A stretch of 37,122 nucleotides of DNA, from the NCBI GenBank assembly GCA_020849095.1, contig JADLGX010000520.1, positions 1 through 37,122 of the forward strand, in the 5' to 3' direction. The notes beneath the pieces are model-generated. The model was not told the DNA's origin. It saw nothing but the letters and a program-made list of their open reading frames with translations, and ran no database searches. The translations under genes were made by a program, and so were the position numbers. Numbering within the stretch: the first letter of the stretch is position 1; each line of letters starts with the position of its first letter. The DNA is from Candidatus Eiseniibacteriota bacterium. GTDB lineage: Bacteria; Eisenbacteria; RBG-16-71-46. Below, in pieces: positions 1 through 26,024 of the stretch.

Positions 1-349
1 TCAGCATGCCCGGGTGCTGGTGCTTCACGATCTCGTCGGTGGCCGCGACGATGAAGCGCATGTCCGGATCTTTGGTCTTGTTGAGCGGCGTGGGCACGCA
101 CACGATCACCGCGTCGGCCTCGGCCAAGACCGCCGGGTCCGCGGTGGCCGCGAGCCGCCGCGCCTTCACGTGGGGCGCCAGATCGGCGGTGGGGACGTCC
201 TGGATGTAGGACTCGCCGGCGTTGAGGAGGCGGACCTTCTCGCGGTTGCGCTCAAGGGCGGTGACCCTGAAGCCCGCGCGCAGCGACTCGGCGACCAGCG
301 GCAAGCCGACGTAGCCCGCGCCGATGACGACGACGTGCGCCGTCTTCAG
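1..349 (-). CDS. Nucleotide-sugar 6-dehydrogenase (WbpA/UDP-GlcNAc dehydrogenase-like), 3' part cut by window edge
   Basis: The first ~116 residues are visible; the rest lies left of position 1. The N-terminus has the dinucleotide fold of UDP-sugar 6-dehydrogenases, VVVIGAGYVGLPL (Gly-rich loop), then LLNAGESYIQDVP and VIVCVPTPLNKTKDPDM, typical of the WbpA/WbpO branch that oxidises UDP-HexNAc to the uronic acid using NAD+. No in-frame ATG exists near the fold. The best start is a CTG at 349 (LKTAHVVVIG) behind a purine-rich GAGAGA; a non-ATG start or a slightly longer N-terminus cannot be excluded. Its 6-oxidation would supply the uronic acid needed by the WlbA/B/C-like enzymes at 11230-14041. 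It lies downstream of the lasso precursor on the same strand, separated by a hairpin at 387-426. The family call is secure; substrate is inferred. Confidence 0.85.
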   Translation of the reverse strand, partial: MKTAHVVVIGAGYVGLPLVAESLRAGFRVTALERNREKVRLLNAGESYIQDVPTADLAPHVKARRLAATADPAVLAEADAVIVCVPTPLNKTKDPDMRFIVAATDEIVKHQHPGML

Positions 350-386
350 TGAGATTCTCTCGAAGAGGACCGCGATGGAGAAACCC

Positions 387-426
387 GGGCGCGCGCTACC
401 GAACACGCTCGGCCGCGCGCGGGCCC
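387..426 (-). terminator. Strong hairpin between lasso precursor and sugar dehydrogenase
   Basis: On the minus strand, GGGC-(cc)-GCGCGC-(gg)-CCGA, a six-base loop GCGTGT, then TCGG-(ta)-GCGCGC-GCCC, giving about 14 paired bases in three blocks. It is followed by GGGTTTCTCC, which is not a clean U-run. It may be a terminator or attenuator that ends the lasso transcript, or an mRNA-protecting stem that uncouples the precursor from the dehydrogenase gene. Function is inferred from position only. Confidence 0.4.
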
Positions 427-472
427 GACCGCCCCCCGCCTGGCCCACGGTCCGCCACGGCGACGGCGCTGC

Positions 473-622
473 CTAGCAAGACACAGCCCCGCCGAATCCG
501 CCGCCGTCGTCGCCGCAGTCGCCTCCGTTCGTAAGCTCGGACAATGTGCCGAGATCTCTGACCGCCGGAGGTTCATACACGGCCCGGGCGACCGGGTCGT
601 CGCTGCTCGATTCGTCCTGCAT
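473..622 (-). CDS. Lasso peptide precursor (leader plus Gly/Asp-rich core)
   Basis: A 49-residue ORF, ATG at 622 and TAG at 475-473, 26 nt after the cyclase stop. The leader contains YEPPAVRDLG (residues 16-25), which fits the lasso leader consensus Y-x2-P-x-L-x3-G with Val for Leu, followed by TLSELTNG. Thr31 is the conserved -2 Thr, so cleavage after Asn32 gives a 17-residue core GGDCGDDGGGFGGAVSC (33-49). Core position 7 is Asp, a suitable macrolactam acceptor for the Gly1 amine (7-residue ring). Cys4 and Cys17 could form a ring-tail disulfide. Ser16 is the only hydroxyl residue in the core. The adjacent RRE, peptidase, cyclase and kinase genes on the same strand support the call. The RBS is weak (AGCGGA about five bases upstream of ATG). 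Leader/core assignment is by family rules; ring size and disulfide are inference. Confidence 0.92.
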   Translation of the reverse strand: MQDESSSDDPVARAVYEPPAVRDLGTLSELTNGGDCGDDGGGFGGAVSC

Positions 623-648
623 TTTTGTCCGCTTCGTGATTTGCGCGC

Positions 649-2337
649 TCACACCGCACGTCGCTCGGCCCGTACGGTGCGCAGCGCTTGAGATATATTC
701 AAGAGCAGTGTGAGACGCAAGGCGTCACGGCTGTCGATTCGGTCCGGCGGCCGCGAACCCAGGGCCGGGGCCACGATTCTCGACAATTCCTGAGGAATCA
801 TCCGCCTCCAGCCGGTGGTGCTCGCCGGCTCCGTCCAGTTCTCCTTCGCCTCGCGAAGCAGGTGACTGTCCGGGACAAGCCCCCGGAGCGACTGACGGAG
901 TAGCTTCTTGGTTCCGGGTCCGATTCCCTCTGAGGGATGGCAATCGAAAGCCAGTTCCACGAGTTCGCGCGAAAGGAAGGGATAGACTCGGCGAACGCCC
1001 AGCGCGCTGGTGACCTCCCAGTTCTGTGCCACCGCCGTCTGAGCGGATTCGAGCCGTTTTGCAACGAACACCCGGGGGCGGGGGTCCAGTGCCAACGCGC
1101 GTCGCTGATCGCTCAGCAGGTCTCGGTACTCCGCTCGCAGCTCACTGCGAACGAACATCGGCAAGGACTCTGGCCGGTGCAGCGGAGCGCGTCCGATCCG
1201 AATGAGCGCTCGCCGGAACAGCCAGCCCAGGGCACTCCTTGGGCCGTTTGCGAGTTCTTCACGATGTCGCAGAAGGTCGGTGGGAGAAGTCGACAGGTCC
1301 CAATCTTCCTTCGTGAGTTCCGACCCAAGAAGATCGTCGCAGTACTCGCCTCCGCACAAGGCGCTGATCTCCCCAGCACGAACGACCTGTGGAAGCACAC
1401 ACAGCGCTGGGTTCGGCACCTGGAACACCTCCCGCGGCGCCCGTTCGACCTGCGCAAGGCGACCGCGAACTGAGTGCTCGAACTCCCAACTGTTTGCGAC
1501 GCTCGACTGGTAGCTCCCAACCAGCGAGCTGATTAGCCCCCGTGCGTTGGACTGAAAGGGCTCCATCGACGGAACAAACGACAAGGTCGAGAACCGTTTC
1601 CCAAGCGTTCCGGCGGCGAGTGCCAGCAGCGCAGACGAATCCACCCCCCCACTGAACGTGAGCAGTGTCCTTCCGCCGGGCTCGAACGCGGTCTCCAAGT
1701 TGCGGAGCAGGATGGTGCGGAGCTGTTTCTCGTGCGCTTCGGCCGCCTCGGCTGTGGGCCGCGAAGGCCGCGCCGTACTAGGGTCCCACCACCGCGAGCA
1801 TGACCAGCGGGCGCCGGCAGAGTGCGCGGCCTCTCCCATCGCGAGCATCTGCGTGTTTGTCAGAAACGTCCGGCGGTCCCCGAGCCAACCATGCATCGAG
1901 CAGCACGTCGCATTCACGAGTGGCTCGAGCTCGGGCTCGTCCGGCACGAAACGAGCGATCTCGCCAAGGCGCGAGGAGCAGGCTAGACGCCCCCTGGATT
2001 CCCACAAATAGATGGGGACGACCCCGGCGGCTGCACGCACCAGGTGCACCCCGCCGACGCTGTCGAAGTGGGCAAATCCGTAGTCGCCCTTCCCCGAACA
2101 CAGGAACGCTTGCCAGCCGGGTTCTCGAAGGCGTGCTTCCAGTTCCGCGTGTGCCACGTCGGGCTCGTTCTCCAGAAACACGAACTCGCCCAGTCGCGAG
2201 CGGGCCCTTCCCGAGCAGCCGACAAGCCAGGCCGAGGCTGAGCTCCCGACCCAATCGAACCGACGACTGCGCCGGAGATCTTCCTCCATGGCGCGCATTC
2301 CGCGCGGATCCGGATCGAAGTAGGCGAAGAACCTCAT
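649..2337 (-). CDS. Lasso peptide macrolactam cyclase (asparagine synthetase B-like, C protein)
   Basis: A 562-residue AsnB-family protein. The C-terminal synthetase half has the ATP-pyrophosphatase P-loop SGGVDSS (229-235) and the late motif YPFLSRELVELAF. In lasso systems this enzyme adenylates the side-chain carboxylate of core residue 7-9 and joins it to the N-terminal amine. The N-terminal glutaminase-like half begins MRFF and lacks the catalytic Cys2 of true glutamine-dependent asparagine synthetases, consistent with amide-ring formation rather than glutamine hydrolysis. The start ATG overlaps the kinase stop (ATGA), so the two are translationally coupled. The precursor gene follows 26 nt downstream. 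Given the neighbouring RRE, B2, kinase and precursor, a housekeeping asparagine synthetase or an exopolysaccharide-type AsnB is unlikely. Confidence 0.9.
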   Translation of the reverse strand: MRFFAYFDPDPRGMRAMEEDLRRSRRFDWVGSSASAWLVGCSGRARSRLGEFVFLENEPDVAHAELEARLREPGWQAFLCSGKGDYGFAHFDSVGGVHLVRAAAGVVPIYLWESRGRLACSSRLGEIARFVPDEPELEPLVNATCCSMHGWLGDRRTFLTNTQMLAMGEAAHSAGARWSCSRWWDPSTARPSRPTAEAAEAHEKQLRTILLRNLETAFEPGGRTLLTFSGGVDSSALLALAAGTLGKRFSTLSFVPSMEPFQSNARGLISSLVGSYQSSVANSWEFEHSVRGRLAQVERAPREVFQVPNPALCVLPQVVRAGEISALCGGEYCDDLLGSELTKEDWDLSTSPTDLLRHREELANGPRSALGWLFRRALIRIGRAPLHRPESLPMFVRSELRAEYRDLLSDQRRALALDPRPRVFVAKRLESAQTAVAQNWEVTSALGVRRVYPFLSRELVELAFDCHPSEGIGPGTKKLLRQSLRGLVPDSHLLREAKENWTEPASTTGWRRMIPQELSRIVAPALGSRPPDRIDSRDALRLTLLLNISQALRTVRAERRAV

Positions 2338-3236
2338 GCGTTTCGAACGGCGATGCCGACCTGTTCAGCAAGGGCAAAGTCGAAGGGCGGGGCGCGGCGG
2401 ACGTTCATCTTGTACACCGGAACGGTTCGCGCGAGTTCCGCGAGTCTTCGCGTCAGGAACTCCAAAACGCTCGGATCTCGCCAGCCCTGCACGCGGGGAT
2501 GCTTGAGCAGTTCCACAAGCGCCTCGGCACCGCGCAGGCGAACCGGGGCCGCATCCCTGTCCGAATAGCCCGGGACGATGACGGCGCGCAGCGGCAACGC
2601 TGCCAGCGTCGGAGGGGCAGGGGTCTCGAGGACGAGGCGCCCGTCGATCGACGAGCGACGCCTCCAGCTCGGCATCAGGTTCGCGACGCCGGCCGCTCCC
2701 TGCCTTATGCGAAGCCCGGTCGAACCCGGATGACAGATCGGTCCGCCTGGCGACTGCGACACACGAAGAACATCGTCGCCCACCAGCTGCAATCCAGTCG
2801 CACATGCGAGCGCAGCGAACGTCGACTTCCCCATCCCGCTCGACCCCGTGAATGCGACGACCCGACCCTGATGCTCAACGGCACTCGCGTGCAGGACCAG
2901 TTCCGCGCGCGCCAGGAGCGCGAGAGTCAACGCATTACCCGTGACGAGCAACGAGGTCAGCTCGAGGCTGGCGACCTGGGCGACCACCTCAATTCGAGTC
3001 GGGCTCACGCGGAAGTCAGCCAGCCCCGGGTAGTTCAGACGAAAGCCATCAGCAACGCGCCAGACCGAGTAGCCATCACCGTCGCCAAAACGAGCTGCGA
3101 CTTCGGTGGAGGGGAGGGCTGGCTGGTCGCTTCCCCCGAGTGTAACCGCGAGGTCCACGGTCGAGCCGACTCCCACGCCCGCGTCGAGCGGGATCTCGGA
3201 CTCGATTTCCAGACCGTGAATCCGGTAATTCCGCAT
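2334..3236 (-). CDS. HprK-like lasso peptide kinase
   Basis: A 300-residue protein related to the C-terminal kinase domain of HPr kinase. ELVLHASAV (about 112-120) precedes the Walker A loop GSSGMGKST (131-139), and an Asp-Asp pair (GDDVLRVS, about 153-160) follows. Homologues in kinase-type lasso clusters (paeninodin class) phosphorylate a Ser side chain near the precursor C-terminus; others belong to the HPr-rel-A system beside a PqqD protein and a nucleotidyltransferase. ATG 3236 was chosen because it lies 2 nt after the B2 stop and begins MRNYRIHGLEIES, whereas the longer open frame upstream is Arg/Pro-rich noise antisense to nothing useful. It overlaps the cyclase start by ATGA. The likely target is Ser48 of the precursor, the only hydroxyl residue in the core. 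Kinase fold is certain by motif; substrate is inferred. Confidence 0.88.
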   Translation of the reverse strand: MRNYRIHGLEIESEIPLDAGVGVGSTVDLAVTLGGSDQPALPSTEVAARFGDGDGYSVWRVADGFRLNYPGLADFRVSPTRIEVVAQVASLELTSLLVTGNALTLALLARAELVLHASAVEHQGRVVAFTGSSGMGKSTFAALACATGLQLVGDDVLRVSQSPGGPICHPGSTGLRIRQGAAGVANLMPSWRRRSSIDGRLVLETPAPPTLAALPLRAVIVPGYSDRDAAPVRLRGAEALVELLKHPRVQGWRDPSVLEFLTRRLAELARTVPVYKMNVRRAPPFDFALAEQVGIAVRNA

Positions 3237-3238
3237 GG

Positions 3239-3706
3239 CTACCGCAGCGCCGTGTATCCTGCGATGGTCGAGCCGCGCATTTCTGGGAGCGGCACCCCGT
3301 TGATTTCCACCCAGGCGTGGGCGGCGATTCCGCCGGGGCGCCGCGCGACGCCGATCTTGAGTCTTGGGCCGAACGCGCGGAGCAGCCCAGCAAGGACGAG
3401 TGAGCGTCGCAGGCATCGGCCACTCGGCGGCATGCGGCTGAAAATCGAGTCAACAACACGGACCACTGAATCGTGATTGGTCGCCAGGGCAGCCGCTCGC
3501 GTCTCTTGCTCCTGCCGGTCCTGCATCAGTCCAACTCCGAGGGCCCGTGCAAGGGTCGGAAGTCTCATCGTCCGCAGCCCAAGTTCTACAGCGGCGGTCA
3601 TGGCTACCGCGTGGAGTAGCGTGGACCGGTCATCGGGGCTCATTCGAGCGAATCTGCGTGCCGCGTGCGCCGCCCGGTGTGCGAAGTCACGCGCAGTCAC
3701 TCGCAT
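3239..3706 (-). CDS. Lasso peptide leader peptidase B2 (transglutaminase-like)
   Basis: A 155-residue protein with the B2 signature: Cys98 in GRCLRRSLVLAGLLR, then KIGVARR and His130 in AAHAWVEINGVPL, the Cys-His pair of transglutaminase-like cysteine proteases that cut the lasso leader after the -2 Thr residue pair. The usual third acidic residue is not obvious; Glu134 or Glu142 lie in the right area. The N-terminal half (LHAVAMTAAVELGLRTM) is the helical region normal for stand-alone B2 proteins. ATG 3706 lies inside the 3' end of the RRE gene (20-nt overlap) and the stop is 2 nt before the kinase ATG, so the four genes form one tightly coupled operon. Length matches the family. Confidence 0.92.
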   Translation of the reverse strand: MRVTARDFAHRAAHAARRFARMSPDDRSTLLHAVAMTAAVELGLRTMRLPTLARALGVGLMQDRQEQETRAAALATNHDSVVRVVDSIFSRMPPSGRCLRRSLVLAGLLRAFGPRLKIGVARRPGGIAAHAWVEINGVPLPEMRGSTIAGYTALR

Positions 3707-3977
3707 CCTCGAGCAGCCCGCGACCGGTCAGGTCCCCCAGGAGCCTCGCGTAGTCTCCTTCCACACGGTCTTGCTCGACCCCGAACTCCGTCGACACGCT
3801 CGCGCACACCTCGTCCGCGCCGAGGCCACTTCGAATCAGTTGCCACATCCTGGTCGCGGTTCGATTCAGCGCGAAGTAGTTGCCGGTTTGGAGATTCAGC
3901 AACACGGCCTCGCCGCCGACTTCCTCACTCACGACGTGAGACGGGACCTTCATGCAGGCGCGAGTTGGACGTGTCAC
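3687..3977 (-). CDS. PqqD-like RiPP recognition element (lasso B1)
   Basis: The PqqD/RRE winged-helix core is clear: GEAVLLNLQTGNYFALNRTA followed by TRMWQLI and a C-terminal helix ending GDLTGRGLLED. RREs bind the leader of the precursor (the Y-x2-P motif) and deliver it to B2. Two starts are possible. GTG 3977 has a GGAG seven bases upstream and its GTGA overlaps the stop of a 21-codon ORF, giving 96 residues. ATG 3953 gives 88 residues but has no recognisable RBS. I use 3977. It is the first gene of the lasso operon. No convincing promoter was found in 3978-4202 on this strand. Confidence 0.9.
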   Translation of the reverse strand: MTRPTRACMKVPSHVVSEEVGGEAVLLNLQTGNYFALNRTATRMWQLIRSGLGADEVCASVSTEFGVEQDRVEGDYARLLGDLTGRGLLEDASDCA

Positions 3978-4039: not shown

Positions 4040-4202
4040 TCTTTCCGATTGTGACAGCAGGCGTCGGAGGCTGGCAATCAGCCCGTGGGTGTTCGTTGCA
4101 TGGGATGCGACCGCGGTTCAGCCCGCGCGCCGAGCAAGGCTGAGAAATCGACGGCCCTGTGCCCGGCCGGGCCAACCGACTCGGCGGTCTACGGCATTCC
4201 CG

Positions 4203-4230
4203 TAGACACGCAACCCGTGCCTCGTATACT
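4203..4230 (+). promoter_or_regulatory. Sigma70-like promoter of the FG-GAP lipoprotein gene
   Basis: TAGACA at 4203-4208 (5 of 6 to TTGACA) and TATACT at 4225-4230 (5 of 6 to TATAAT), with a 16-bp spacer. Transcription would begin near 4237. A GGGAGG ribosome binding site (about 4249-4254) lies seven bases before ATG 4261. Start site is inferred. Confidence 0.6.
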
Positions 4231-4260: not shown

Positions 4261-7200
4261 ATGCGTCAACGTCTCTTCCTCTTGCTTGCGGCAGGCACTG
4301 TCGCGCTGGCTGGTTTTGCTGGTTGTGGGGACGGTGAGGAGGGTGGCAGCAGCGGCGGCGGAGGCGGCACTGGAGGCGACGGAGGCGGGCTGTGCCCGAC
4401 CGCATCGTTCACCGCACCAGCCGAGGGAGCCAAACTGGGCGCTCAGGACGACGCCGACGGCGATTGCTCCAACGGTCTCCAACTCGACGTGACGGTCGCG
4501 ACCAGCGCCGCGAGCGGGACGACTGCGGCCTTGCTCGCCGACGGACAGGAGGTCGGAACAGCGACCGCCGCAGGCGCGGTGCTCAAGTTCTCCAAGGTCA
4601 CCCTGCCGTCCAAAGCGTCAGTCGAGCTCACCGTTCGGTTCGGCGGAGCCGCTGCCTGCGACGAGGTAATTTCGGTCACGACCGACTGCGGCGCGCCGGG
4701 CTGCGAGATCGGCAAGCCAGTCCTTTCACCGACGCACCCCAAACTCAACGGAGTCCCGGTTCCCGAGGGCGGCGATCGGGCGAGCGCACCAGGCCAACAG
4801 TACCAGGTCGCTTTCGAGGTAACGACCGACGTTGATGACGGGCAGCCCGTCACACTGACGGTAGACGGAAAGGCATCGACCGCGGTCGCGCTCGCGGCGG
4901 CCGGCATTGCTTCATTTCCGGGCGTGACCTTGACTCCAGACGGAGATCACAAGGTTCAGGCGGTGTGCAAAGCCACGGGGGGCGAATCCGGGGCGAGCGC
5001 CGAAGTCACGTATCCGGTTGATACCATGGCCCCAGACCTCACCAACACCACGCCGGATGACGGCAAGTTCTTTGGCCCCACCGATGACTCAGATCCGGTG
5101 AAGAGTGGCTTGCAGTTCGAAGTCTGCGGGCAAACCACCGCCGCGGACGCGCTGGACCTCCCCGCGTCACTCGGCAGTGGTCAGAACAACTTCTGCGTCG
5201 GAATCGGAACGTCTACCCCGGTTTGCGCGCCTGCAAAGACAGCTGGCGTTGGCAGCGCAAACGGCGGCTGCGTCGACCTCGATTGTCCGGGCGGCGCGCC
5301 GTTCGACCTCACGGTCACGCTTCGCGACGACGCCGGAAACCCCACCGCCAAGACCATCAAGGGCGTTCGCTGCGCCTCGACGTTGCCGAGCGTGCAGGTG
5401 ATCGATCCGGTTGACGGAACCGGAGCCGACGTCACCAAGCACATCCTCGCAGCGTCGATGGTGCAGCCCAGAAAGGATCAGGACGCGACCAAGACGGGTT
5501 GCCAGTTCACTGTTTCGGCCTGCACTGACGTTAACGGCAAGGGCACGCTCTACGCCGGGGTTGGCACGCCGGTCGAGGTCGCGGGTCAGAAAGACATCCA
5601 GGCACAGGCCGCTTCGGCCGGCGACAACTGCCCAGCCAGCTACCCGTTCGTCATCAAGTTCGTGAATGCGGATCTCCCGGAGAGCGCCGAGACCGCGGCG
5701 AACGCCCTGCAAACGCCAACCTCCCTCTACGTCAAGGTGACGGACACCAGCACGGCGGTCGGCACGAGCCCGACGGTACAGGTTTGGGCCGACTGCACGG
5801 CGCCGACGATCACCGAGTGGACCCCCAATCCGCTGTGCGGAAAGCTGTACCAGAGCGCCAGCGACGTGACGCAGAACCTGATCCTGGGGTCCACGAACTC
5901 GCCGGTGGCGGTCACCATCACGAGCAGCGGCACACCTCAGAGTTACACCGAGCAGAGTTGGGCTCTGGGCTTCAGCAGTTTTGGCAACGTCACGTTCAAG
6001 CAGGGCACGAACGACGTCGTCGCCACTACGACGGAGCCGGTGGGCAACACCGGGGCACTCAAGTCCCCGTGCTCGGTGACGGTCGGGAACCCACCGATCG
6101 TGACGTGGACGAGCCCGACGCTGGCCACGGCGCTCAACGCAGCGACAGACGGGAACAGCGGGACCGCGGGCTGGCAAGGTACGCTCAGCGTTCAGACGAA
6201 CGTCGGCGGTTCTGGCGGCACTGTGACGTTCAAGGTGAACTGTGGCGGCACGGTAACCACGCTTGGAACGTCAAACATCGACGGCGCGGGCGTCGCCACG
6301 CTCGCCAATGCGACACTTCCGGAGTGCGCCTCCGCGACCATCACGGCAGAGACCAGCAACATCGCCGGAAAGGGCGTTGGGACCGCTTCGCTCGCGAACA
6401 AGCCGGTCGACACCGTCGTCCCGGGCGCCCCAACAGGCCTGGCCGTCGCGGTAAAGGATCGGAGGGCCACGAGCTTCACGCTCAGTTGGACCGCTCCGGC
6501 CGACAACGGGACGTCTGCAGTGGGTGGGTACCAGGTTCGCGTCTCGAAGGTCGCGATAACCGCGGGAAATTTTGATGCTGCCGAAGTTGTGGCTTTCCTG
6601 GGTGCTCCGAAGGCCCCGGGTCAGGCGGAGTCCCTCGAGGCAAACAGTCGCGTCATCGAGACCAACTACTACTTCGCCGTTGCGGCGACCGATGCGGCGG
6701 GAAACCGTGGCACCGTCGTCGCGACTGGCCCGTCGAAAGCGACTTTCAACCAGATTGTGCTGAAGTCGGGGACCACCAACGAGCAAATCGGCATCGCCAT
6801 CGACGCGTCTAGCAGCATCAACGGCGACGCGTTCACCGACCTGCTGGTGGGTGGGCGCAACGGCTACCACCTTTACATCTGGCTTGGGTCTGCGTCAGGC
6901 TACGGCGCGAACCCGGACGTCACCATAACGGGTGTCTCGGGCACTCGCTTCGGTCAGGGTGCTGCTGTCGTTGGCGACATCGATGGCGACTCGCTGCCAG
7001 ACATCGCCGTCGGGGCGCCGCTCGAAGCCGGCAAGGGAAGGGTATACATCTTCAAGGGACGTGCCACTTGGCCCGCCGCTCTGGCTCACACCCAGGCTGA
7101 CTACGTGGTCGACGTGGACGCGGCTGCTGACAGCAAGTTCACTGGGTCAGTGTTCGGGGCGATCATCACCCCGCTCGGCGACATCGATCAGGACGGCGCC

Positions 7201-8061
7201 GCTGACTTCGCTGCGAGTGCGTTCATCTATGGGGCCGGCCAAGGCTACGTCGCGATCGTGCGCGGAGTAACCTCCGGGAACGCCTTCCCGGCAACGACGA
7301 CCATCCCCGCCGCTGTGGGGACACGAGTGATCGCCGTCGTGGGCGACCCGGCCGTGCCCAAGGGCTGGTTCGGATCGCGCGTGGTTGGCCTCGGCCCCTA
7401 CTACTCTGGGAACCACCCCGCCATGGTCGTGTCCGCGCCGCCCGCGGGATTGGTCTACTCGTTCCAGGGCGACACCGGGCTGTCGGGAACGATTCTGGCG
7501 GCGAATGCCAAAGAGAAGTACACCGGCGTGGCGTCGTATCGGACCGGCCAGACTCTGTCGAATCTTGGCCCTGTCACGGCGGTCACCAGTCTCGGAGTGG
7601 GAGCGCCGGCGTCGCAGAGTTCGGCAGGCGGCGAAGCGCGGCTGTTCTACGGCAGCGCAGCGTCGCTATTTACGAATTCACCAGTTGTCATCACCAACTC
7701 CGTGGCCCAGAGCGTGGGCGACAATTTCTCCTATGCGCTGTTCGGAGGCGGCTTCTCGGGCTCGACCGTCAACGTGAGCCTCATTGGAGCCTCCGGGGTC
7801 GACGTGGGGTTCTCGTCGATCAAGCTTGCCGGGAACCCCGCCAAGCTGTACCTGGCGGAGGGCTCGAAACTCGGTGCTTCGGGGGACATTGTCAGTCTCG
7901 CTGACGTCGTCGTGGATCTTCCTGCCGACTGGGTTGGCTCGTCAGGCCAGAGCGGGCCGATCAAGGACATGAACAATGATGGCTACGCAGACATCGCACT
8001 GGGCGAACAGACCAACGGTGCGGTGAGCTCGTACGACGGCCGCGTCATCGTCCTCTGGTGA
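4261..8061 (+). CDS. Large FG-GAP / fibronectin III-type surface lipoprotein
   Basis: A 1266-residue secreted protein. Residues 1-22 are a lipoprotein signal peptide ([10 protein letters not shown]..., lipobox FAGC with Cys22) followed by a Ser/Gly-rich linker. The middle (about 40-710) is a string of Ig-like beta domains with paired Cys. A fibronectin III module starts near 715 ([11 protein letters not shown]...FTLSW). The C-terminal third (about 850-1266) is an FG-GAP/integrin-alpha-like propeller with calcium-type loops such as [32 protein letters not shown] and [17 protein letters not shown] 4261 is fixed by the GGGAGG site and the signal peptide. It is transcribed divergently from the lasso operon and stands alone between it and the polysaccharide operon. 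Likely an outer-membrane or surface adhesin/binding protein; the ligand is unknown. Confidence 0.85.
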
Positions 8062-8171: not shown

Positions 8172-9200
8172 ATGCCCAAAGCGATCATCACCGGGATCAC
8201 CGGCCAAGACGGTTCTTACCTCGCGGAGCTTCTCCTTTCGAAGGGCTACGACGTCTGGGGCCTGGTTCGCCGTTCGTCGAGCTTCAACACCGCACGCATC
8301 GACCATTTGTACCAGGACCCGCATCACCGGGAAGTGAAGCTCCGGTTGGTGTACGGCGACCTCAACGACTCCACTTCACTGGCAAACGTCCTGGAAGAGG
8401 TGAAGCCCGACGAAGTTTACAACCTGGGCGCGCAGAGCCACGTACGGGTGAGCTTCGACATCCCCGAGTACACTGGCGAGATCAGCGGAATGGGGTCGGT
8501 GAGGCTTCTCGAGGCGATTCGCCGGCAGAACCTGAAGACTCGGTTTTACCAGGCGAGCTCGAGTGAGCTTTTCGGCAAGGTCCACGAGGTCCCACAGAAG
8601 GAGACCACGCCGTTCCACCCGCGGAGCCCCTACGCTGCTGCAAAGGCCTACGCCTACTACATCACGCTCAACTACCGCGAGGCGTACGGCATGTTCGCCG
8701 TCAACGGGATCCTCTTCAACCACGAGAGCCCACGCCGCGGCGAGACGTTCGTCACGCGGAAGATCACCCGCGGGGCAACGCGGATCAAGGTTGGCCTCCA
8801 GGACAAACTCTACATGGGCAACCTGGAGTCCAAGCGCGACTGGGGGTTTGCTGGCGACTACGTCGAGGGCATGTGGCGCATGTTGCAGACGCAAGAACCC
8901 GATGATTTCGTTCTTGCCACTGGGGAGACACACAGCGTGCGCGAGTTCGCCGAGAAGGTGTTTGCGTCGCTCGACTTGGACTACAAGCAGTACGTCGAGT
9001 ACGACGCCAAGTACGAGCGTCCGGCGGAAGTCGATCTGCTCTTGGGCGACTACGCCAAGGCCAAGACCAAGCTCGGATGGGAGCCGAAAGTCAGCTTCGA
9101 CGGGCTGGTGAAGATGATGGTCGATGCCGACTTGGTACTTGCGAAGGAAGAGAAGGCCCTCGCAGATCACAAGGAGCTCGTGCGACAGGGGCAGCAATGA
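8172..9200 (+). CDS. gmd: GDP-mannose 4,6-dehydratase
   Basis: A 342-residue extended SDR enzyme converting GDP-D-mannose to GDP-4-keto-6-deoxymannose. The NADP-binding loop is [34 protein letters not shown] and [12 protein letters not shown] carry the catalytic Ser/Thr-Tyr-Lys residues; [16 protein letters not shown] is the highly conserved Gmd substrate segment. ATG 8172 (MPKAIITG) was chosen by homology, as upstream in-frame sequence is not family-like. It is the first gene of the plus-strand operon. The stop overlaps the fcl start (ATGA), so the two GDP-fucose enzymes are coupled. Length and motifs match the family closely. Confidence 0.97.
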
Positions 9201-10141
9201 TCGACTGGGGACAGACCCGAGTCGTCGTCACAGGGGGTGCCGGCTTTCTCGGGCGCTTTGTCGTCGAAAAGCTTCAAGCACGCGGTGCAAAAGATGTGAT
9301 CGTGCCACGCTCGAAGGAGTTCGACCTGGTCGACGGCGACGCGGTGCGGAGGCTGCTTGCGGCGTCCAAGCCGCACCTGGTCATCCACCTCGCAGCGCGT
9401 GTCGGCGGCATCGGCGCGAATCGGGAGAACCCGGGCCGGTTCTTCTACGAGAACGCGATGATGGGCATCCAACTCTTGCACGAAAGCTGGAAGGCGGGCG
9501 TGAACAAGTTCGTCGCGTGTGGGACGATCTGCGCTTACCCGAAGTTCACGCCCGTCCCTTTTAGAGAAGAGGAAATCTGGAACGGCTATCCGGAGGAAAC
9601 GAACGCGCCGTATGGGATCGCCAAGAAAGTCATGAGCGTGCAGTCCGAAGGATACCGCGCGCAGTACGGCTTCAACTCGGTGGTCGTCTATCCGGTGAAC
9701 TTGTACGGCCCGGGCGACAACTTCGACTTGCAGGCGAGTCACGTGATTCCAGCAATGCTCCGCAAGTTCCATGAGGCGAAGTTGGCGAAGCGGGCGGAGG
9801 TGGTGCTGTGGGGCGACGGGTCACCGACCCGGGAGTTCTTCTACGTAGACGACTGCGCGGAAGGCATTGTGTTGGCTGCCGAGCGCTACGACTCGAGCGA
9901 GCCGATGAATCTCGGGTCCGGCGAGGAGATTTCCATCAAAGCGCTAGCCGAAAAGGTCCAGTCGCTGGTTGGCTACGAGGGGCATCTGGTCTGGGATCCC
10001 AGCAAGCCCAACGGGCAACCGCGGCGTCGGCTTGACGTTTCGAAGTCGCGGGCGCTTCTCGGCTTTCAGGCAGCGGTGGACCTCGATACCGGTCTTCGTC
10101 GGACCTACGATTGGATGCTGACCGACGCTTCCCAGCGATGA
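9197..10141 (+). CDS. fcl: GDP-L-fucose synthase (epimerase/reductase)
   Basis: A 314-residue SDR enzyme that completes GDP-L-fucose synthesis from the Gmd product (3,5-epimerisation and 4-reduction with NADPH). Motifs: [15 protein letters not shown] (NADP loop), [20 protein letters not shown], the catalytic Cys/Ser region [23 protein letters not shown] (Tyr-Lys), and [11 protein letters not shown] plus the C-terminal [11 protein letters not shown]. It overlaps gmd by ATGA. The GDP-fucose is probably used by the GT11-like transferase at 22498-23499 at the far end of the same operon. Confidence 0.96.
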
Positions 10142-10166: not shown

Positions 10167-11102
10167 GTGCGGCCCCGCGCTAGCGACTTGCACCCCCACG
10201 CGGTGGCCCAGGCATTGGCTCTGGAGGCCGAGTTGGCGCGCGTGTGTCGTTCGCTCTCGGCTGCGAGCATCCCTGTGATTGTGCTGAAGGGGGTGCCGCT
10301 GGCGCGAAGACTCCACGGTCGCCTCGGTCTTAGAAAGTCCGTCGATAACGACCTCTTGGTGCGGGAGGCCGACGTGGTAGTGACAGTGAATGTGTTGAGG
10401 GGTCTCGGCTACCGCGACCTGGATTCGCGCTCGCTGTCGGCGAGTCGCTCCTTCACGTTCCAGCACCCAATGGGGTACTCAGGACCTGCGGGCCGCCTGT
10501 TCGTAGAGGTTCACTGGAACGCGTTCACGCCGGATCTCTTCGCCGTTCCGGCGAGCCTGCAGTGGAGTCGCACCGAGGCGTTCGTCGTTCGGGAAGCGCC
10601 TGTCGTGGTCTTTGATCGTGCGATGACCTTGGTTCACCTCGCTGCGCACGCGGCTCAGCACTACCTGACTGAGCCGAGGATACTCCGCGACATCTCTGAG
10701 GCCTGGGCGCTCTGGCACAACGAGCTCGCGATGGGCGACCTGGTCGCGCTTGCGGATCGGACACAGACGCGCGAGGTGCTGGCCTGGGCGCTCCGCGCCT
10801 CGGGTGCGGCGCCCGGTGCGCTCGAGACGCCCCGCACTCGATGGTTCGCCGCCATGGCCCGCCCCAGCTGGCTTTCCCACCCAACGCCCGCGCGGCTGTA
10901 CTGCGGCATGATTCTTGCGCTTCTGATGGTGCGTCCGTCGAGGTTGCCACGGGCGCTTCTCCGGGGGGTCTTCCCGCCCGCCGCGCAGATGGATCTGATC
11001 TACCCTGGAACGGCGCCTCGTCGTCGTTGGCTGAGATACGCAGGCCGCCCATTTCGACCGCTGGCGCGAGTCCTCCGTGGGCGTGCTGCCCGCGAACGCT
11101 AG
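10167..11102 (+). CDS. Nucleotidyltransferase-family protein (PF14907-like, lasso/HPr-rel-A associated)
   Basis: A 311-residue protein. IPVIVLKGVPLARRLHG (about 35-51) followed by SVDNDLLV (58-65, Asp60 and Asp62 as the metal pair) is the signature of the uncharacterised nucleotidyltransferase group PF14907. Start GTG 10167 has a strong GAGGGGAG site. Members sit beside HprK-like kinases and PqqD proteins in HPr-rel-A sets and in some kinase-type lasso clusters; in one studied lasso case (pseudomycoidin, from memory) the enzyme adds hexose to the kinase-made phosphate. Here it sits in the sugar operon about 6 kb from the lasso kinase, on the other strand. It could act on the lasso peptide or independently on polysaccharide. 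Fold assignment is good; role is inference. Confidence 0.75.
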   Translation: MRPRASDLHPHAVAQALALEAELARVCRSLSAASIPVIVLKGVPLARRLHGRLGLRKSVDNDLLVREADVVVTVNVLRGLGYRDLDSRSLSASRSFTFQHPMGYSGPAGRLFVEVHWNAFTPDLFAVPASLQWSRTEAFVVREAPVVVFDRAMTLVHLAAHAAQHYLTEPRILRDISEAWALWHNELAMGDLVALADRTQTREVLAWALRASGAAPGALETPRTRWFAAMARPSWLSHPTPARLYCGMILALLMVRPSRLPRALLRGVFPPAAQMDLIYPGTAPRRRWLRYAGRPFRPLARVLRGRAARER

Positions 11103-11229: not shown

Positions 11230-12288
11230 ATGACAGAGAAACTCCGTGTCGGGCTCGTCGGTTGCGGACGAATCTCCACGAGGCACATCGAGGTCCTGAA
11301 GGCGATGGAGGACCTCGACGTGGTTGCGGTGTGCGACACGGCTCCCGGCCGAGCGGAGAATGCCGCGGTTGCAGCAAGTGCCCGCGCATATGGCGACCAC
11401 CTGGAGATGGCGCGCGCGGAGCGGTTGGATGTGGTGAGCATCCTGACCGAATCTGGATCGCACGCGCGGCTCGGAGCGGAGTTAGCGCCGCTCGTTGGCG
11501 CGCTGGTGGTGGAGAAGCCCATGGCGCTCACCCTCGACGATGCGGACCGATTGATCGAGACTTGCGAGCGCCACGGAACCCGGCTGTTCGTGGTCAAGCA
11601 GAACCGCTTCAACCCCGCCATCGTGCGGTTGCGCGAAGCGCTCGACGCCGGGCGCTTCGGCAAGCTTGTGATGGGCACCGTCCGGGTTCGGTGGTGCCGT
11701 ACGCAGCAGTACTACGACCAGGACACCTGGCGGGGAACATGGAAGGACGACGGCGGGGTGTTCACCAACCAGGCGAGTCACCACGTCGACCTCCTCCAGT
11801 GGCTGCTCGGCCCGGTGGAGAGTGTGATGGCGTACACTTCCTCTAGGCTCGTCGCCATCGAGACCGAGGATACCGGAGTTGCGATCATGCGCTTCTTGAA
11901 CGGTGCGCTTGGGGTGGTCGAGGCGACCACTGCCACCAGGCCACGCGATCTGGAAGGCAGCATCTCACTGCTTGGGGAGCGAGGCTCTGTCGTTGTCGGC
12001 GGGTTTGCGGTGAACCGTGTGGACACGTGGAACTTCGCGGAGCCTGAGTCGGGAGACACGGAGGCGGCCGGGGCTGCGACGGCGCCGCCGAACGTTTACG
12101 GGTTCGGCCACTACGCCTTCTACCGAGACGCGTTGGAGTGCATCTCCTCCGGTCGTCGAGCCATGCTGGACGGCATCGAAGGGCGAAAGTCGCTGGAACT
12201 GATCAACGCCATATACGAGTCTGCCGCGACTCACGCGGAAGTTCGTCTCAGGTATGTCCCGCGCGGTGTCAGGCTAGGCAGGCAGTGA
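11230..12288 (+). CDS. Gfo/Idh/MocA-family sugar 3-dehydrogenase (WlbA/WbpB-like)
   Basis: A 352-residue oxidoreductase. The N-terminal NAD loop is VGLVGCGRIS (7-16), the family motif VVEKPMAL lies at about 93-100, and FVVKQNRFNPAI and GGVFTNQASHHVDLLQWLLGP form the substrate/catalytic region with the conserved His-x3-Leu. WlbA/WbpB oxidises C3 of UDP-GlcNAcA, giving the 3-keto sugar aminated by WlbC/WbpE. An AAGGAACC-like site precedes ATG 11230. The stop overlaps the next start (TGATG). The gene order dehydrogenase-acetyltransferase-aminotransferase equals Bordetella wlbA-wlbB-wlbC, which supports the substrate call. Confidence 0.88.
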   Translation: MTEKLRVGLVGCGRISTRHIEVLKAMEDLDVVAVCDTAPGRAENAAVAASARAYGDHLEMARAERLDVVSILTESGSHARLGAELAPLVGALVVEKPMALTLDDADRLIETCERHGTRLFVVKQNRFNPAIVRLREALDAGRFGKLVMGTVRVRWCRTQQYYDQDTWRGTWKDDGGVFTNQASHHVDLLQWLLGPVESVMAYTSSRLVAIETEDTGVAIMRFLNGALGVVEATTATRPRDLEGSISLLGERGSVVVGGFAVNRVDTWNFAEPESGDTEAAGAATAPPNVYGFGHYAFYRDALECISSGRRAMLDGIEGRKSLELINAIYESAATHAEVRLRYVPRGVRLGRQ

Positions 12289-12929
12289 TGGATCTCGTTC
12301 GCGTGTTCCCGAACGTCCACCTTGGACCGGATGCTCAAGTGGACGACTTCGTCGTGCTCGGCCGACCTCCGCGGGGCCGCGGGCCGGGCGAGCTGCCTCT
12401 CGAAATAGGCGCCCGGTGCACGCTCCGGTCGCACACCGTGATCTACGCGGGGGCGCAGATCGGTGCCGACTTCCAGTCGGGGCATGGCGCGCTGGTTCGC
12501 GAGCAGACGGTGATCGGAGATGACTGCTCCATTGGCAGCGGGTGCGTCGTCGAGTTCCAAGTCACCATGGGCAACCGCGTTCGGTTGCACACGGGCGTCT
12601 TCGTGCCCGAGCACTCGGTGCTCGAGGACGGCGCATGGCTTGGCCCTCGGGTGGTGCTCACCAACGCCAAGTTCCCGCTGTCGTCCCGGGCCAAAGCGAC
12701 CCTCCGCGGCGTCCGCATCCAGAAGGACGCCAAGGTGGGCGCGAATGTGACCGTGCTACCCGGCGTGGTCGTCGGGGAGGGCGCGCTCGTGGGCGCCGGC
12801 GCCGTCGTCACGCGCGACGTGCCGGCTTGGGCCGTCGTCGCGGGCAATCCTGGCAAGGTCGTCGGCGACGTGCGCGAACTCCGCGACGTCGACACGGGAC
12901 GACCGGCATATCCCGGAGGTACACCATGA
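12288..12929 (+). CDS. Hexapeptide-repeat N-acetyltransferase (WlbB/WbpD-like)
   Basis: A 213-residue left-handed beta-helix acyltransferase with repeated [I/V]-G-x4 turns, e.g. IGADFQSGHGALVREQTVIGDDCSIG in part, VKVGANVTVLPGVVVG-type repeats and the C-terminal VVTRDVPAWAVVAGNPGKVVG typical of sugar O/N-acetyltransferases. Between a WlbA-like dehydrogenase and WlbC-like aminotransferase it is best read as the enzyme acetylating the 3-amino group of the UDP-2-acetamido-3-amino uronic acid. Its start overlaps the previous stop and its stop overlaps the next start (ATGA). Confidence 0.88.
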   Translation: MDLVRVFPNVHLGPDAQVDDFVVLGRPPRGRGPGELPLEIGARCTLRSHTVIYAGAQIGADFQSGHGALVREQTVIGDDCSIGSGCVVEFQVTMGNRVRLHTGVFVPEHSVLEDGAWLGPRVVLTNAKFPLSSRAKATLRGVRIQKDAKVGANVTVLPGVVVGEGALVGAGAVVTRDVPAWAVVAGNPGKVVGDVRELRDVDTGRPAYPGGTP

Positions 12930-14041
12930 GCGAGCGCATTCCGCTTGTCGATCTTCGAGCGCAGTACCAATCCATCCGAGCGGAGATGGACGAGGCAATC
13001 GGCCGAGTCGTCAGTCGCTGTGCCTTTATCCTCGGGGAAGAGGCCGAGGCGTTCGAAGCCGAGTTCGCGTCTTTCGTGGGCACTTCTCACTGCATCGGCG
13101 TCGGCAACGGAACGGACGCTCTAACGCTGGCCCTCCAAGCCTTGGGAATTGGTTCGGGTGACGAGGTGATCACCGTCTCGCTCACCTTCATCGCGACGGC
13201 AGAGGCGATCAGTGCCCTTGGCGCCATCCCCGTGTTCGTGGATGTGGCGCCCGACACTCTCCTGATGGACGTTGCTGCGGTCGAAAGAGCCATCACGCCG
13301 CGCACGCGCGCGATCATTCCGGTGCACCTCTACGGACAAGTCGTCGACATGGATCCGCTCCTGGAACTTGCCGCCAAAGCGAGCATCCCTGTCGTGGAGG
13401 ATGCAGCGCAAGCGCACGGGGCCACGTATCGCGGTCGTCGCGCCGGTTCCATGGGCCGTCTGGCGGCGTTCAGCTTCTATCCGGGCAAGAACCTCGGGGC
13501 GTACGGCGACGCTGGCGCCGTGGTCACCGCGGACCCGGAGCTGGCGCGGTGGGTTCGCAAGGCGCGGGACCACGGGCGGACCAGCAAGTACGCGCACGAC
13601 TTCGTTGGGCGCAATTCCCGTCTCGACGGCATCCAGGCCGCGGTCCTCCGCTGCAAGCTGCGCCACCTTGAGGGGTGGAACGCCGCGCGCAGGGCCCTTG
13701 CCGCCGAGTACGATCGCAGGCTCGCGGCGGTCGGCGGTGTGCGCCGGGTCGTGCGCCGCGCCGATGGCGACTCGGCGTGTCACCTGTACGTCGTCGAGGT
13801 GGATGGCCGTGACGAGGTCGTCGCGCGGCTGCGCGGGGCCGGGATCGAAGCCGGAGCGCATTACCCCATCCCGGTTCATCGCCAGGGCGCGTATTCGCAC
13901 ATCGAGGGCGTGGCGTTGCCGGTGACCGAAGCAGCGGCCGACCGCGTGCTGTCGTTGCCGTTGTACCCGGAGTTGAGTGCGGACGCGGCTGCTCGGGTGA
14001 CTGGGGCGATCGCTGCGACTGTCTGTGCGAGTGACCGCTAG
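12926..14041 (+). CDS. DegT/DnrJ/EryC1 PLP aminotransferase (WlbC/WbpE-like)
   Basis: A 371-residue sugar aminotransferase. IPLVDLRAQY at the N-terminus is the usual opening of this clade; VEDAAQAHGATY carries the PLP-binding Asp159; AFSFYPGKNLGAYGDAG contains the Schiff-base Lys188; HLYV and HYPIPVHRQ follow at the C-terminus. The WlbC/WbpE type aminates the 3-keto group of the UDP-uronic acid, using glutamate as donor. It overlaps the acetyltransferase by ATGA. A 12-nt gap separates it from the polymerase gene. Confidence 0.92.
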   Translation: MSERIPLVDLRAQYQSIRAEMDEAIGRVVSRCAFILGEEAEAFEAEFASFVGTSHCIGVGNGTDALTLALQALGIGSGDEVITVSLTFIATAEAISALGAIPVFVDVAPDTLLMDVAAVERAITPRTRAIIPVHLYGQVVDMDPLLELAAKASIPVVEDAAQAHGATYRGRRAGSMGRLAAFSFYPGKNLGAYGDAGAVVTADPELARWVRKARDHGRTSKYAHDFVGRNSRLDGIQAAVLRCKLRHLEGWNAARRALAAEYDRRLAAVGGVRRVVRRADGDSACHLYVVEVDGRDEVVARLRGAGIEAGAHYPIPVHRQGAYSHIEGVALPVTEAAADRVLSLPLYPELSADAAARVTGAIAATVCASDR

Positions 14042-23505: not shown

Positions 23506-24645
23506 TCACGTCGCGCGCACCAGCCTTTGCCGCGCACGGCGTGCCCACGACTTCGCGAGCACGCCCAGGTCCACGAGCCCGCGTGCGCCCGGGTAACGCT
23601 CGTGGGGCACGGGGGGGAGGGCGATCAGTGCCTCCAGCTCCTTGGGTGATACGCCGAGTTTCTTCGCGACGAAAGCCGTCTGGAGGCGCGCGGAATTCGC
23701 GTCGCATGCGGGGATCTGAAGCGCGGCGAGCGCGGAGTCCCGATTCAGGTGGCCGGCGACAATCTGACTTGATAGGTGCAGCCGGCGCTTGTCGAAACCG
23801 TAGCGTGCTGGCAGATACACCTCCTGGTAGAAACGCGTGAAACGCGACTCGTGGTGCTTCGAGCCGTAGTCTTTGAAGCCGTACTCGCGCTCCAGTTCTA
23901 GACGTGCGGCGTCCTTGTCGTAGTCGAGGAAATTCAGCGGGCGGTGGATTTCGAGTCGCCTGCTCACGCTCGTCCGCCAGATGTACTCGGTGACATCCAT
24001 GACGGGAAAGGTCTCGAGCGGCCGTGATCCGAAACGCCTGTGGATACCGCGGATGTGGCGGCCGTCCAGGTTCGGGTAGCCCCACCCCGGTAGACTGATG
24101 CACTCGCTGGCGAAATTGACGCCGCTGAGGAAGTGCCGAACGTTGAATGTCTCGGCCGTGCGATACAGCGTTGTGAAGAACGCGTGGTCCTGGGGGATGT
24201 CCTGGTTGAGCACCGACGCGCGCAGAAACGCCAGCTGGACGTCCCGCATCTCCTGCCACTCGACCACGTAGGTGTATAGGTCGAGCCCCAACGCCCGGAC
24301 CAAACGCTCGATGTTGTGGACGGCGGGCTCGGTGTTCCAGCCACCGTCCACGTGGATGGCCAACAAGCGCAAGCGGAAACGCGTCGCGAGCACGTGTGCC
24401 AGGTAGGCGCTGTCGGTGCCGCCACTCAGACCGATGATCGCGTCGTACGGGCGACGACGGCTCTCGCCAGCGATCTGTTCCGTCAGCATGCGAAGCCGGC
24501 GCTCGCCCTCCGCAGTCGGAAACCACTCGCTGCCCATGCGCGCTCGGGCATTGCGACAGCAGTCGCACTCTCCCCGTGCGTCGAAATCGAGTGTTGGGCC
24601 GGACTCGTCCATGACGCAGAATGTGCAGGCTCGACTCGGCTTCAC
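23506..24645 (-). CDS. N-acetyl sugar amidotransferase (WbpG/PseA/WbuX-like)
   Basis: A 379-residue ATP-pyrophosphatase-family enzyme. The P-loop is IIGLSGGTDSAYLAH (71-84). Cys7/Cys10 (ACTFC) and the cluster CDCC (27-30) form the zinc-like N-terminal motif of PseA/WbpG. With ammonia from the HisH/HisF2 pair it converts an acetamido sugar to an acetamidino (amidine) sugar, using ATP. GTG 24645 overlaps the HisF2 stop (GTGA). A longer upstream frame is antisense-type noise. It is the last gene of a four-gene minus-strand operon and converges on the fucosyltransferase. Confidence 0.92.
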   Translation of the reverse strand: MKPSRACTFCVMDESGPTLDFDARGECDCCRNARARMGSEWFPTAEGERRLRMLTEQIAGESRRRPYDAIIGLSGGTDSAYLAHVLATRFRLRLLAIHVDGGWNTEPAVHNIERLVRALGLDLYTYVVEWQEMRDVQLAFLRASVLNQDIPQDHAFFTTLYRTAETFNVRHFLSGVNFASECISLPGWGYPNLDGRHIRGIHRRFGSRPLETFPVMDVTEYIWRTSVSRRLEIHRPLNFLDYDKDAARLELEREYGFKDYGSKHHESRFTRFYQEVYLPARYGFDKRRLHLSSQIVAGHLNRDSALAALQIPACDANSARLQTAFVAKKLGVSPKELEALIALPPVPHERYPGARGLVDLGVLAKSWARRARQRLVRAT

Positions 24646-25409
24646 CAGGTTTCTCCGTTCGCCCGTGGCGAGGCGAGGTCCACCGTATCCGGGTAGGTGA
24701 TGAGCACGGCGCGCAGGCGGCCGATGAACACGAACGCGCTCCCCGAAGCCACCGCAGAGGCCCCGGCGCCAAGCCCAGCACGCAGGTGCGCCACATCGCC
24801 CGCCCCGCCGAGCGCCACGACCGGGACACCAACCGAATGTGCTACGGCAGATACCAGGCCGAGATCGTAGCCTTGCCCGCACCCATCGTGGTCGATGCTC
24901 TGTACCACGATCTCTCCGGCGCCTGCCTCGACGACCTGGCGAGCGAAGTCGATCGGGTTGTGTCCGAGGTCGAGTTGCCCGCGCCGGGAATGCACGCGGT
25001 ATCCATCGCGCCCGCTGCGCACGTCTACGCATGCTGCGACTGCCTGCGATCCGAAGACGTCGGCGATCCCGCGTACCAGTCCTGCGTCGGCGGCCGCTGT
25101 GCCAAGCAAGACCTTCTCCACACCCACTTTGAAGAGCGCTGCGGCGTCCTCGGTGCTTTGGACCCCGCCGCCATAGGTAAGCGGCATGAAGCACTCCGAC
25201 GCCAGCGCTCGCACGAAGTCCACCCGTGGGCGGCGGCCCTCGAGGGTAGCGCAGATGTCGAGCACACAGAGCTCGTCGACCTCCTTCTCGTTGAACAAGC
25301 GGATGACGTTGAAGGGGTCGCCCACGTACACTTCGTCCTTGAACCTCCGCGACTTGACGAGCCGGCGTCGGGAGTCGACGAGCAGGACAGGGATGACTCG
25401 AGGTCGCAT
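24642..25409 (-). CDS. HisF2/WbuZ-type acetamidino-sugar modification protein
   Basis: A 255-residue TIM-barrel protein related to the HisF cyclase subunit. MRPRVIPVLLVDSRRRLVKS is the WbuZ-style N-terminus; EVYVGDPFNVIRLFNEKEVDELCVLDI, LTYGGGV and VVALGGAGDVAHLR are the phosphate-binding segments. In the WbpG-HisH2-HisF2 system the HisF/HisH pair supplies ammonia, not imidazole glycerol phosphate, to WbpG. The ATG directly follows the HisH TAG. A true histidine-pathway HisF is unlikely because no other his genes are near. Confidence 0.9.
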   Translation of the reverse strand: MRPRVIPVLLVDSRRRLVKSRRFKDEVYVGDPFNVIRLFNEKEVDELCVLDICATLEGRRPRVDFVRALASECFMPLTYGGGVQSTEDAAALFKVGVEKVLLGTAAADAGLVRGIADVFGSQAVAACVDVRSGRDGYRVHSRRGQLDLGHNPIDFARQVVEAGAGEIVVQSIDHDGCGQGYDLGLVSAVAHSVGVPVVALGGAGDVAHLRAGLGAGASAVASGSAFVFIGRLRAVLITYPDTVDLASPRANGETW

Positions 25410-26024
25410 CTATGTGAGCTCCATGAACCGCTGCAAGAGGGCCATCCCGTGACGGTGGCTCTTCTCAGGATGGAACTGCACGCCGAAGACGCTGCCGCGT
25501 GCGACTGCCGCAGCGAACGTTCCGCCGTAGTCGCACCGGGCCGCGATGTCACGATCGTCATCGGGTTCGAGGCAGTAGCTGTGGCTGAAGTAGTAGCGCG
25601 GGACTTCGTTGCCCCCGGGAAAGAGCGCCGACGCGCGCGTAGGGCTGACCTCGCTCCAGCCCATGTGTGGCACCTTGACGCCCTCGTGCGGCGAGAGCTT
25701 GACGACATCGGCTGGGATCCACCCGAGCCCCCGCTCGCTGCGCTGTCCCTCGTCGCTGCTGCGGCCGAGAAGCTGCATCCCAAGACAGATCCCGAGCACC
25801 GGGGCACCGCGCGCGACGACTGCCTCCGTCAACGGCGCAACTAAGTCGAGCTCACGCAACCGTGCCATCGCCTGGTCGAACGCCCCGACACCCGGGAGGA
25901 TTAGGCGAGCCGCGCTGACGATGGATCGGGGGTCGCGGCTGGCCACAGCGTCATGGCCTAGGTGCTCGAGCATGTTGATTATGGCCCCCAAGTTGCCGAC
26001 GCCGTAGTCCACGACGATGTTCAT
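25410..26024 (-). CDS. hisH: HisH-type glutamine amidotransferase (WbuY-like)
   Basis: A 204-residue class I glutaminase. VLGICLGMQLLG carries the nucleophile Cys80; FHPEKSH supplies His185 and Glu187, completing the triad. The MNIVVDYGVGNLGAI start is the classic HisH opening. It releases ammonia for the neighbouring WbpG-like enzyme. The HisF2 gene follows with no gap. A 72-bp gap with no gene separates it from the upstream GT4. The RBS is not obvious. Confidence 0.92.
   Translation of the reverse strand: MNIVVDYGVGNLGAIINMLEHLGHDAVASRDPRSIVSAARLILPGVGAFDQAMARLRELDLVAPLTEAVVARGAPVLGICLGMQLLGRSSDEGQRSERGLGWIPADVVKLSPHEGVKVPHMGWSEVSPTRASALFPGGNEVPRYYFSHSYCLEPDDDRDIAARCDYGGTFAAAVARGSVFGVQFHPEKSHRHGMALLQRFMELT

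Follow-up and report, generated by a model that had tools for sequence, protein, structure and literature searches.

The closest described systems are the kinase-type lasso peptide clusters of paeninodin and pseudomycoidin, in which PadeK-type kinases depend on four essential residues (His, Lys and Asp-Asp). PadeK phosphorylates a Ser, and PsmN, annotated as a nucleotidyltransferase, glycosylates the phosphoserine of pseudomycoidin and is needed for the one or two hexoses placed there (PMC9266682). For Bacilli, a 2026 report places kinase-type lasso clusters within capsular loci; these carry HprK kinases, NTP transferases and MsbA-like exporters, and lasso and exopolysaccharide genes rise together, with a function that is unknown (PMC13381572). 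Clusters in Butyrivibrio contain a kinase, a nucleotidyltransferase, a GT2 protein and EpsH (PMC7533575).

The window analysed here is the whole of one contig (C522, exactly 37122 bp). It contains a real and intact five-gene lasso operon, and this is a divergent lasso system of the kinase type.

Organization of the lasso operon

473–622, minus strand: lasso precursor, 49 aa from its ATG, last gene of the operon (NF033521, 27.6 bits, cut-off 19)
649–2337, minus strand: AsnB-like macrolactam cyclase (C), 562 aa (PF00733, 37 bits, cut-off 21)
2334–3236, minus strand: HprK-like peptide kinase, 300 aa (HprK-related models)
3239–3706, minus strand: B2 leader peptidase, transglutaminase-like (PF13471, 59 bits; NF033537, 61.5 bits, cut-off 33)
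3687–3953, minus strand: discrete RRE (B1), PqqD-like (PF05402, 53 bits)
4048–4077, minus strand: promoter-like site upstream of the RRE gene (consensus scan only)

The five genes span positions 473–3977 of the minus strand in the order RRE, B2, HprK-like kinase, AsnB-like cyclase and precursor, and their key catalytic motifs are intact. The B2 and RRE genes overlap by 20 nt, the kinase gene begins 2 nt after B2, and the cyclase start overlaps the kinase stop through ATGA. The precursor gene overlaps the cyclase stop if read from a GTG at 652 (473–652, 59 aa) and follows a 26-nt gap if read from the ATG at 622. With overlaps of 4–20 nt or 2-nt gaps, the genes look translationally coupled, and five independent family matches in a single operon whose start and stop codons are coupled exceed chance by far. 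A scan for terminator-like motifs inside the operon gave no more matches than in shuffled sequence. The re-derived coordinates agree with the sequence-only reading, which had described five contiguous minus-strand genes, most of them with overlaps or 2-nt gaps, and the family matches for these genes, together with the glycan genes on the contig, uphold its view that the polysaccharide locus contains a complete kinase-type lasso cluster.

That reading had drawn the RRE gene from a GTG at 3977; the start at 3953 agrees with the solved lasso RRE TbiB1, whose alignment (2.8e-13) runs from the first residue, a Met. B2 has its Cys and His in place, with Glu where Asp is usual, and the matches to NF033537, PF13471 and TbiB1 identify a leader peptidase of the split B1 + B2 kind. 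HprK-related models match the kinase at about 2e-7, a weak result far under their own curated cut-offs. The protein is 32% identical to one kinase in genome G144, and H116, K137, D154 and D155 are invariant in an alignment with the kinases of loci L041 and L043, giving the His, Lys and Asp-Asp of an HprK-like kinase of the paeninodin type (PadeK).

The cyclase matches PF00733 and has the SGGVDSS motif of an AsnB-like macrolactam cyclase; it does not have the N-terminal Cys nucleophile that three MCG-type asparagine synthases in the comparison set retain. NCBIfam lasso cyclase models score under their cut-offs. In the tree it shares a long branch with the L042 cyclase, away from both the paeninodin-like cyclases and the asparagine synthases. 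The only close relatives recovered are those of L042/L053 and L054, at 34–35% identity (35% for L042). At 1e-15 the class of the bin gave none in its 46 other genomes, and no close ones turned up in 195 genomes of one phylum (Myxococcota-like, by a MYXO-CTERM-like protein) or on plasmids.

The precursor and its predicted core

Lasso precursors have as hallmarks a YxxPx leader, Thr at position −2, Gly1, and Asp or Glu at positions 7–9. The precursor here matches NF033521 and divides into the leader YEPPAVRDLGTLSELTN and the predicted core GGDCGDDGGGFGGAVSC, with the YxxPx motif, Thr at −2 in a T-N|G junction, Gly1, and an acidic residue at core position 7 (Asp7), as read from the sequence. If the usual 7–9 rule holds, ring closure by Gly1 is limited to Asp7. 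The lone hydroxyl residue in the core is Ser16, which leaves a kinase that acts on the core a single possible site. The core ends in VSC, with Ser next to last and not C-terminal as in the paeninodin type, and PadeA-family models do not match the window precursor; because the C-terminal Ser feature fails, the cluster is called a variant of that type. Ser is likewise next to last in the L042 core, GLPPIPSPDVNGLSA. Cys4 in the ring and Cys17 in the tail are candidates for a disulfide of the class III type. A kinase-type lasso cluster elsewhere in the bin's class (L016, G040:C14, 6353–6544) has a similar Gly/Asp-rich core, AGLGPDDDGGGGLMS, with Ser at the end.

The Gly-rich core, with no bulky plug residue except Phe11, and the long cyclase branch would also suit a modified but unthreaded product made by the kinase and RRE, resembling the linear polyphosphorylated peptides (LPPs), with the cyclase acting otherwise or not at all. 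An RRE, an HprK-like kinase and an NTP transferase are common to LPP systems (PMC13381572). LPP clusters are without B2 and cyclase, however, and both are present here, intact and lasso-type; the leader moreover fits the lasso model, with its Thr at −2. An LPP-like product is improbable.

The polysaccharide neighbourhood and the PF14907 nucleotidyltransferase

1–448, minus strand: nucleotide-sugar dehydrogenase, N-terminal part, cut by the contig end (PF03721; TIGR03026)
8172–10141, plus strand: gmd and fcl, GDP-mannose 4,6-dehydratase and GDP-L-fucose synthase-like (TIGR01472, 518 bits, over cut-off)
10203–11102, plus strand: PF14907 nucleotidyltransferase, PsmN-like candidate partner of the kinase, motifs intact
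11230–36628, strand unspecified: polysaccharide genes (family matches)

The fcl-like gene matches NF047922 at 312 bits, under the cut-off. The region 11230–36628 encodes a Gfo/Idh dehydrogenase, hexapeptide acetyltransferases, DegT aminotransferases, glycosyltransferases, a flippase-like (Wzx-like) protein and Bac_transf, as well as WbuX/HisF2/HisH amidation proteins and Wzy-, Wzz- and CapD-like proteins; a wbp-like amino-sugar set lies at 11230–14041. At 23506–26024 a WbuX-like amidotransferase gene with HisF2- and HisH-like genes forms a sugar acetamidino (amidation) set. The earlier claim that the cluster is flanked by a sugar dehydrogenase and a glycan operon is borne out by the PF03721/TIGR03026 fragment and by the GDP-fucose, wbp-like and Wzx/Wzz-like genes. 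This glycan setting is real and is not new in kind, having already been reported in Bacilli (PMC13381572). The synteny of lasso and glycan genes, for which a comparison had been proposed, was not found to be conserved outside Bacilli: in a coarse test, divergent kinase-type lasso loci there had no excess of homologues of the window glycan genes over controls.

The PF14907 gene begins about 60 nt after gmd-fcl and belongs to that operon. Among loci chosen only for PF14907, an HprK-like kinase is nearby in 20/38 and an RRE in 17/38; controls without PF14907 at their centre had the kinase in 0/43 loci. The tree pairs the window protein with its counterpart at L018 (support 95/82), where the PF14907 gene starts a lasso operon, a placement that is unsure because of long branches. 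By analogy the window enzyme may do something PsmN-like, possibly with fucose. An RRE-PF14907-ABC-kinase arrangement is conserved at L156–L159, in four genomes that belong to the bin's class and, in three cases, to its family; B2, cyclase and radical SAM are missing there, and the system may be LPP-like.

With PsmN as precedent, a chemical link between peptide and glycan through the PF14907 enzyme of the gmd-fcl operon is plausible. Carried further, a phosphorylated lasso peptide would be joined through its phosphoserine to a sugar or surface glycan and stay at the cell surface. Such putative attachment, which the sequence-only reading had suggested as one option, is a possibility to which the position of PF14907 beside gmd-fcl, the PsmN precedent (single hexoses) and a contig without an exporter all point; no known case of a polysaccharide-bound lasso peptide was found, the glycan synteny is not conserved outside Bacilli, and surface retention of this kind is quite unlikely.

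The FG-GAP lipoprotein and a second RiPP-like locus

4203–4230, plus strand: promoter-like site for the divergent FG-GAP neighbour (consensus scan)
4261–8061, plus strand: divergent FG-GAP/Ig-repeat lipoprotein, 1266 aa, with a lipobox-like N-terminus (PF01839, PF13517)

The FG-GAP/Ig lipoprotein is a possible partner of the lasso cluster. A paralogue of the same length, 46% identical, is encoded on contig C437, within a second RiPP-like locus of the bin (L114, G000:C437, 2836–13506). This locus also encodes radical SAM, PqqD and PF14907 proteins, an HprK-like kinase and an ABC exporter, together with a small peptide that carries the motif YQRPQV, and NCBIfam matches place it close to GeoRSP systems. 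Homologues of the FG-GAP protein were found in 0/384 other genomes at 1e-25. A general association of FG-GAP proteins with RiPP loci was considered and dropped, as by homology it comprises just the window and C437. At L043 (10276–11721), an unrelated protein with FG-GAP-like repeats is encoded directly beside a kinase-type lasso cluster.

The double FG-GAP/RiPP association is the most unusual observation made here, and it stays a lead because it consists of two cases in one bin. The lasso and radical-SAM loci could be sister systems, each working with its own FG-GAP lipoprotein and PF14907 copies, whose modified peptide would not be secreted and would be anchored at the envelope surface through phosphoserine to glycan or lipoprotein, a very improbable arrangement.

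Sequence origin

The host is uncertain because the codon usage of the window is foreign to the genome bin. In unmasked contigs of the bin, GC is close to 0.70 and GC3 lies mostly at 0.87–0.95, their own sugar loci included. GC3 is 0.62–0.83 in the window genes and about 0.79 on C437, compared with a bin value of 0.94, and a synonymous-codon test found 28/28 window genes tested and 9/9 C437 genes to be unlike the bin. In the same test the dehydrogenase fragment, of 115 codons, resembles the bin (+10.4 nats). Codon usage thus shifts sharply between 1–448 (bin-like) and 473–37122 (foreign), which leaves three origins for the block, namely a genomic island, a misbinned contig or a misjoin near position 450; statements on the rest of 'the genome' are weak for this reason. 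A native orthologue of the dehydrogenase was sought and rejected, the family's genes being just 50–56% identical over the fragment and in another context.

The setting could therefore be in part an artefact of misbinning, or of a misjoin near 450 that made the dehydrogenase a false neighbour of the lasso genes. The codon and GC3 differences agree with this, as do the nulls for the cyclase (0/46 other class genomes) and the FG-GAP protein. A genomic island would nevertheless give an identical picture, a nucleotide-sugar dehydrogenase suits the wbp-like set, and the lasso, FG-GAP and glycan genes have a codon style in common, which makes them a coherent part of the contig. An artefact is somewhat unlikely.

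Export

The sequence-only reading had the cluster without an exporter. This stands within the window, where family searches of the genes found no ABC transporter anywhere on the 37122-bp contig, ruling out one hidden among them; on the other side the contig stops within the dehydrogenase gene, 472 bp after the precursor, so the absence holds upstream only. A missing exporter also proves little, since the kinase-type lasso loci L016, L018 and L043 have none within their flanks. Isopeptidase-type lasso clusters are also exporter-less; the isopeptidase and TonB receptor genes of that type had no Pfam match among the scanned window genes. Exporter absence is here neither proven nor rare. A bin-wide search with the L042 exporter gave, as best matches, ABC exporters of 33–34% identity on contigs of bin-like composition, which are uninformative for the window cluster because the window looks foreign to the bin. 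Extension of the contig through the cut dehydrogenase was also tried and rejected, the bin's other two dehydrogenases being full length and of another type.

The product may be an ordinary exported lasso peptide, acting in competition or signalling, with its ABC exporter past the contig end or at another place in the true host and its glycan proximity a result of shared horizontal transfer. Most of the kinase-type loci compared do have an MsbA/HepA-like exporter close by (L042, L045–L050, L052 and L054 among kinase-type and related loci), the contig stops just past the precursor, and the glycan synteny is not kept in divergent relatives. Set against these are 33 kb of upstream sequence without an exporter, the nucleotidyltransferase in the gmd-fcl operon, and the recurrence of co-localization with capsule loci in Bacilli (PMC13381572). 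This reading has a little less than an even chance.

Proposed pathway

The best explanation as a whole, held with fair confidence, is a divergent kinase-type lasso pathway in which Ser16 is phosphorylated and perhaps then glycosylated. The RRE would bind the YxxPxV leader and B2 would cut two residues past the conserved Thr (SELTN|GG). The cyclase would close the ring between Gly1 and an acidic side chain; by its position Asp7 is the most likely partner, and it would give a seven-residue ring as in the xanthomonins. The kinase would phosphorylate Ser16 before or around cleavage and cyclization, and the Cys4-Cys17 disulfide could form. Hand calculation from the sequence predicts monoisotopic [M+H]+ values of 1410.47 for the disulfide-bearing lasso, 1490.43 once phosphate is added, and 1636.49 with both phosphate and a deoxyhexose. 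The phosphoserine is probably the substrate of the PF14907 enzyme, which may add a sugar from the glycan pool; both the phosphorylation and the transferase step are predicted, and likely. Export would go through an ABC transporter that lies off the contig or is shared with the C437 locus. L042 shares the RRE-B2-kinase-cyclase-precursor order and L054 is also related, in support of this pathway, as are the family matches and motifs of the five genes, the cyclase without the asparagine-synthase Cys, the pairing of PF14907 genes with HprK-like kinases, and the PadeK and PsmN precedents; the Ser that is not last, the weak HprK scores, the uncertain host, and a PF14907 gene 6 kb off on the other strand, with long branches behind its tree placement, count against it.

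The link between kinase-type lasso genes and surface polysaccharide, known in Bacilli, now extends to DNA that is not Bacilli-like. Two testable partners are added, the nucleotidyltransferase in the GDP-fucose operon and the FG-GAP lipoprotein with a paralogue beside a second RiPP locus, and they make the role of such peptides at the cell surface an easier question to attack.

Comparison with known systems

The window resembles the paeninodin (PadeK) and pseudomycoidin (PsmK, PsmN) systems (PMC9266682) in its split B1/B2, its HprK-like kinase with His-Lys-Asp-Asp, its cyclase, and a PF14907-type transferase in the neighbourhood. It differs in that the Ser is next to last where theirs is last, the precursor is the last gene in the operon, the cyclase shares its own deep branch with that of L042, the contig has no exporter, and the transferase lies 6 kb away in the gmd-fcl operon. 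With the lasso/LPP capsular clusters of Bacilli (PMC13381572) it shares kinase-type lasso genes inside a polysaccharide locus and a second RRE/kinase/transferase RiPP locus in apparently the same genome (here C437). Unlike those clusters, its sequence is not Bacilli-like, the second locus is radical-SAM and not SipW-type, FG-GAP lipoprotein genes lie beside both loci, and no MsbA-like exporter adjoins the lasso genes.

L042/L053 (MAG JAUQPW01, G144) and L054 (Ardenticatenia MAG JAUZRY01) have the kinase followed by the cyclase, as in the window, whereas an ABC exporter is close by in both, L054 also has a nearby transferase, and the core peptides differ. At the level of the predicted peptide, the possible seven-residue ring would resemble that of the xanthomonins and the possible ring-tail disulfide that of BI-32169 (class III), with sequences unrelated in both cases.
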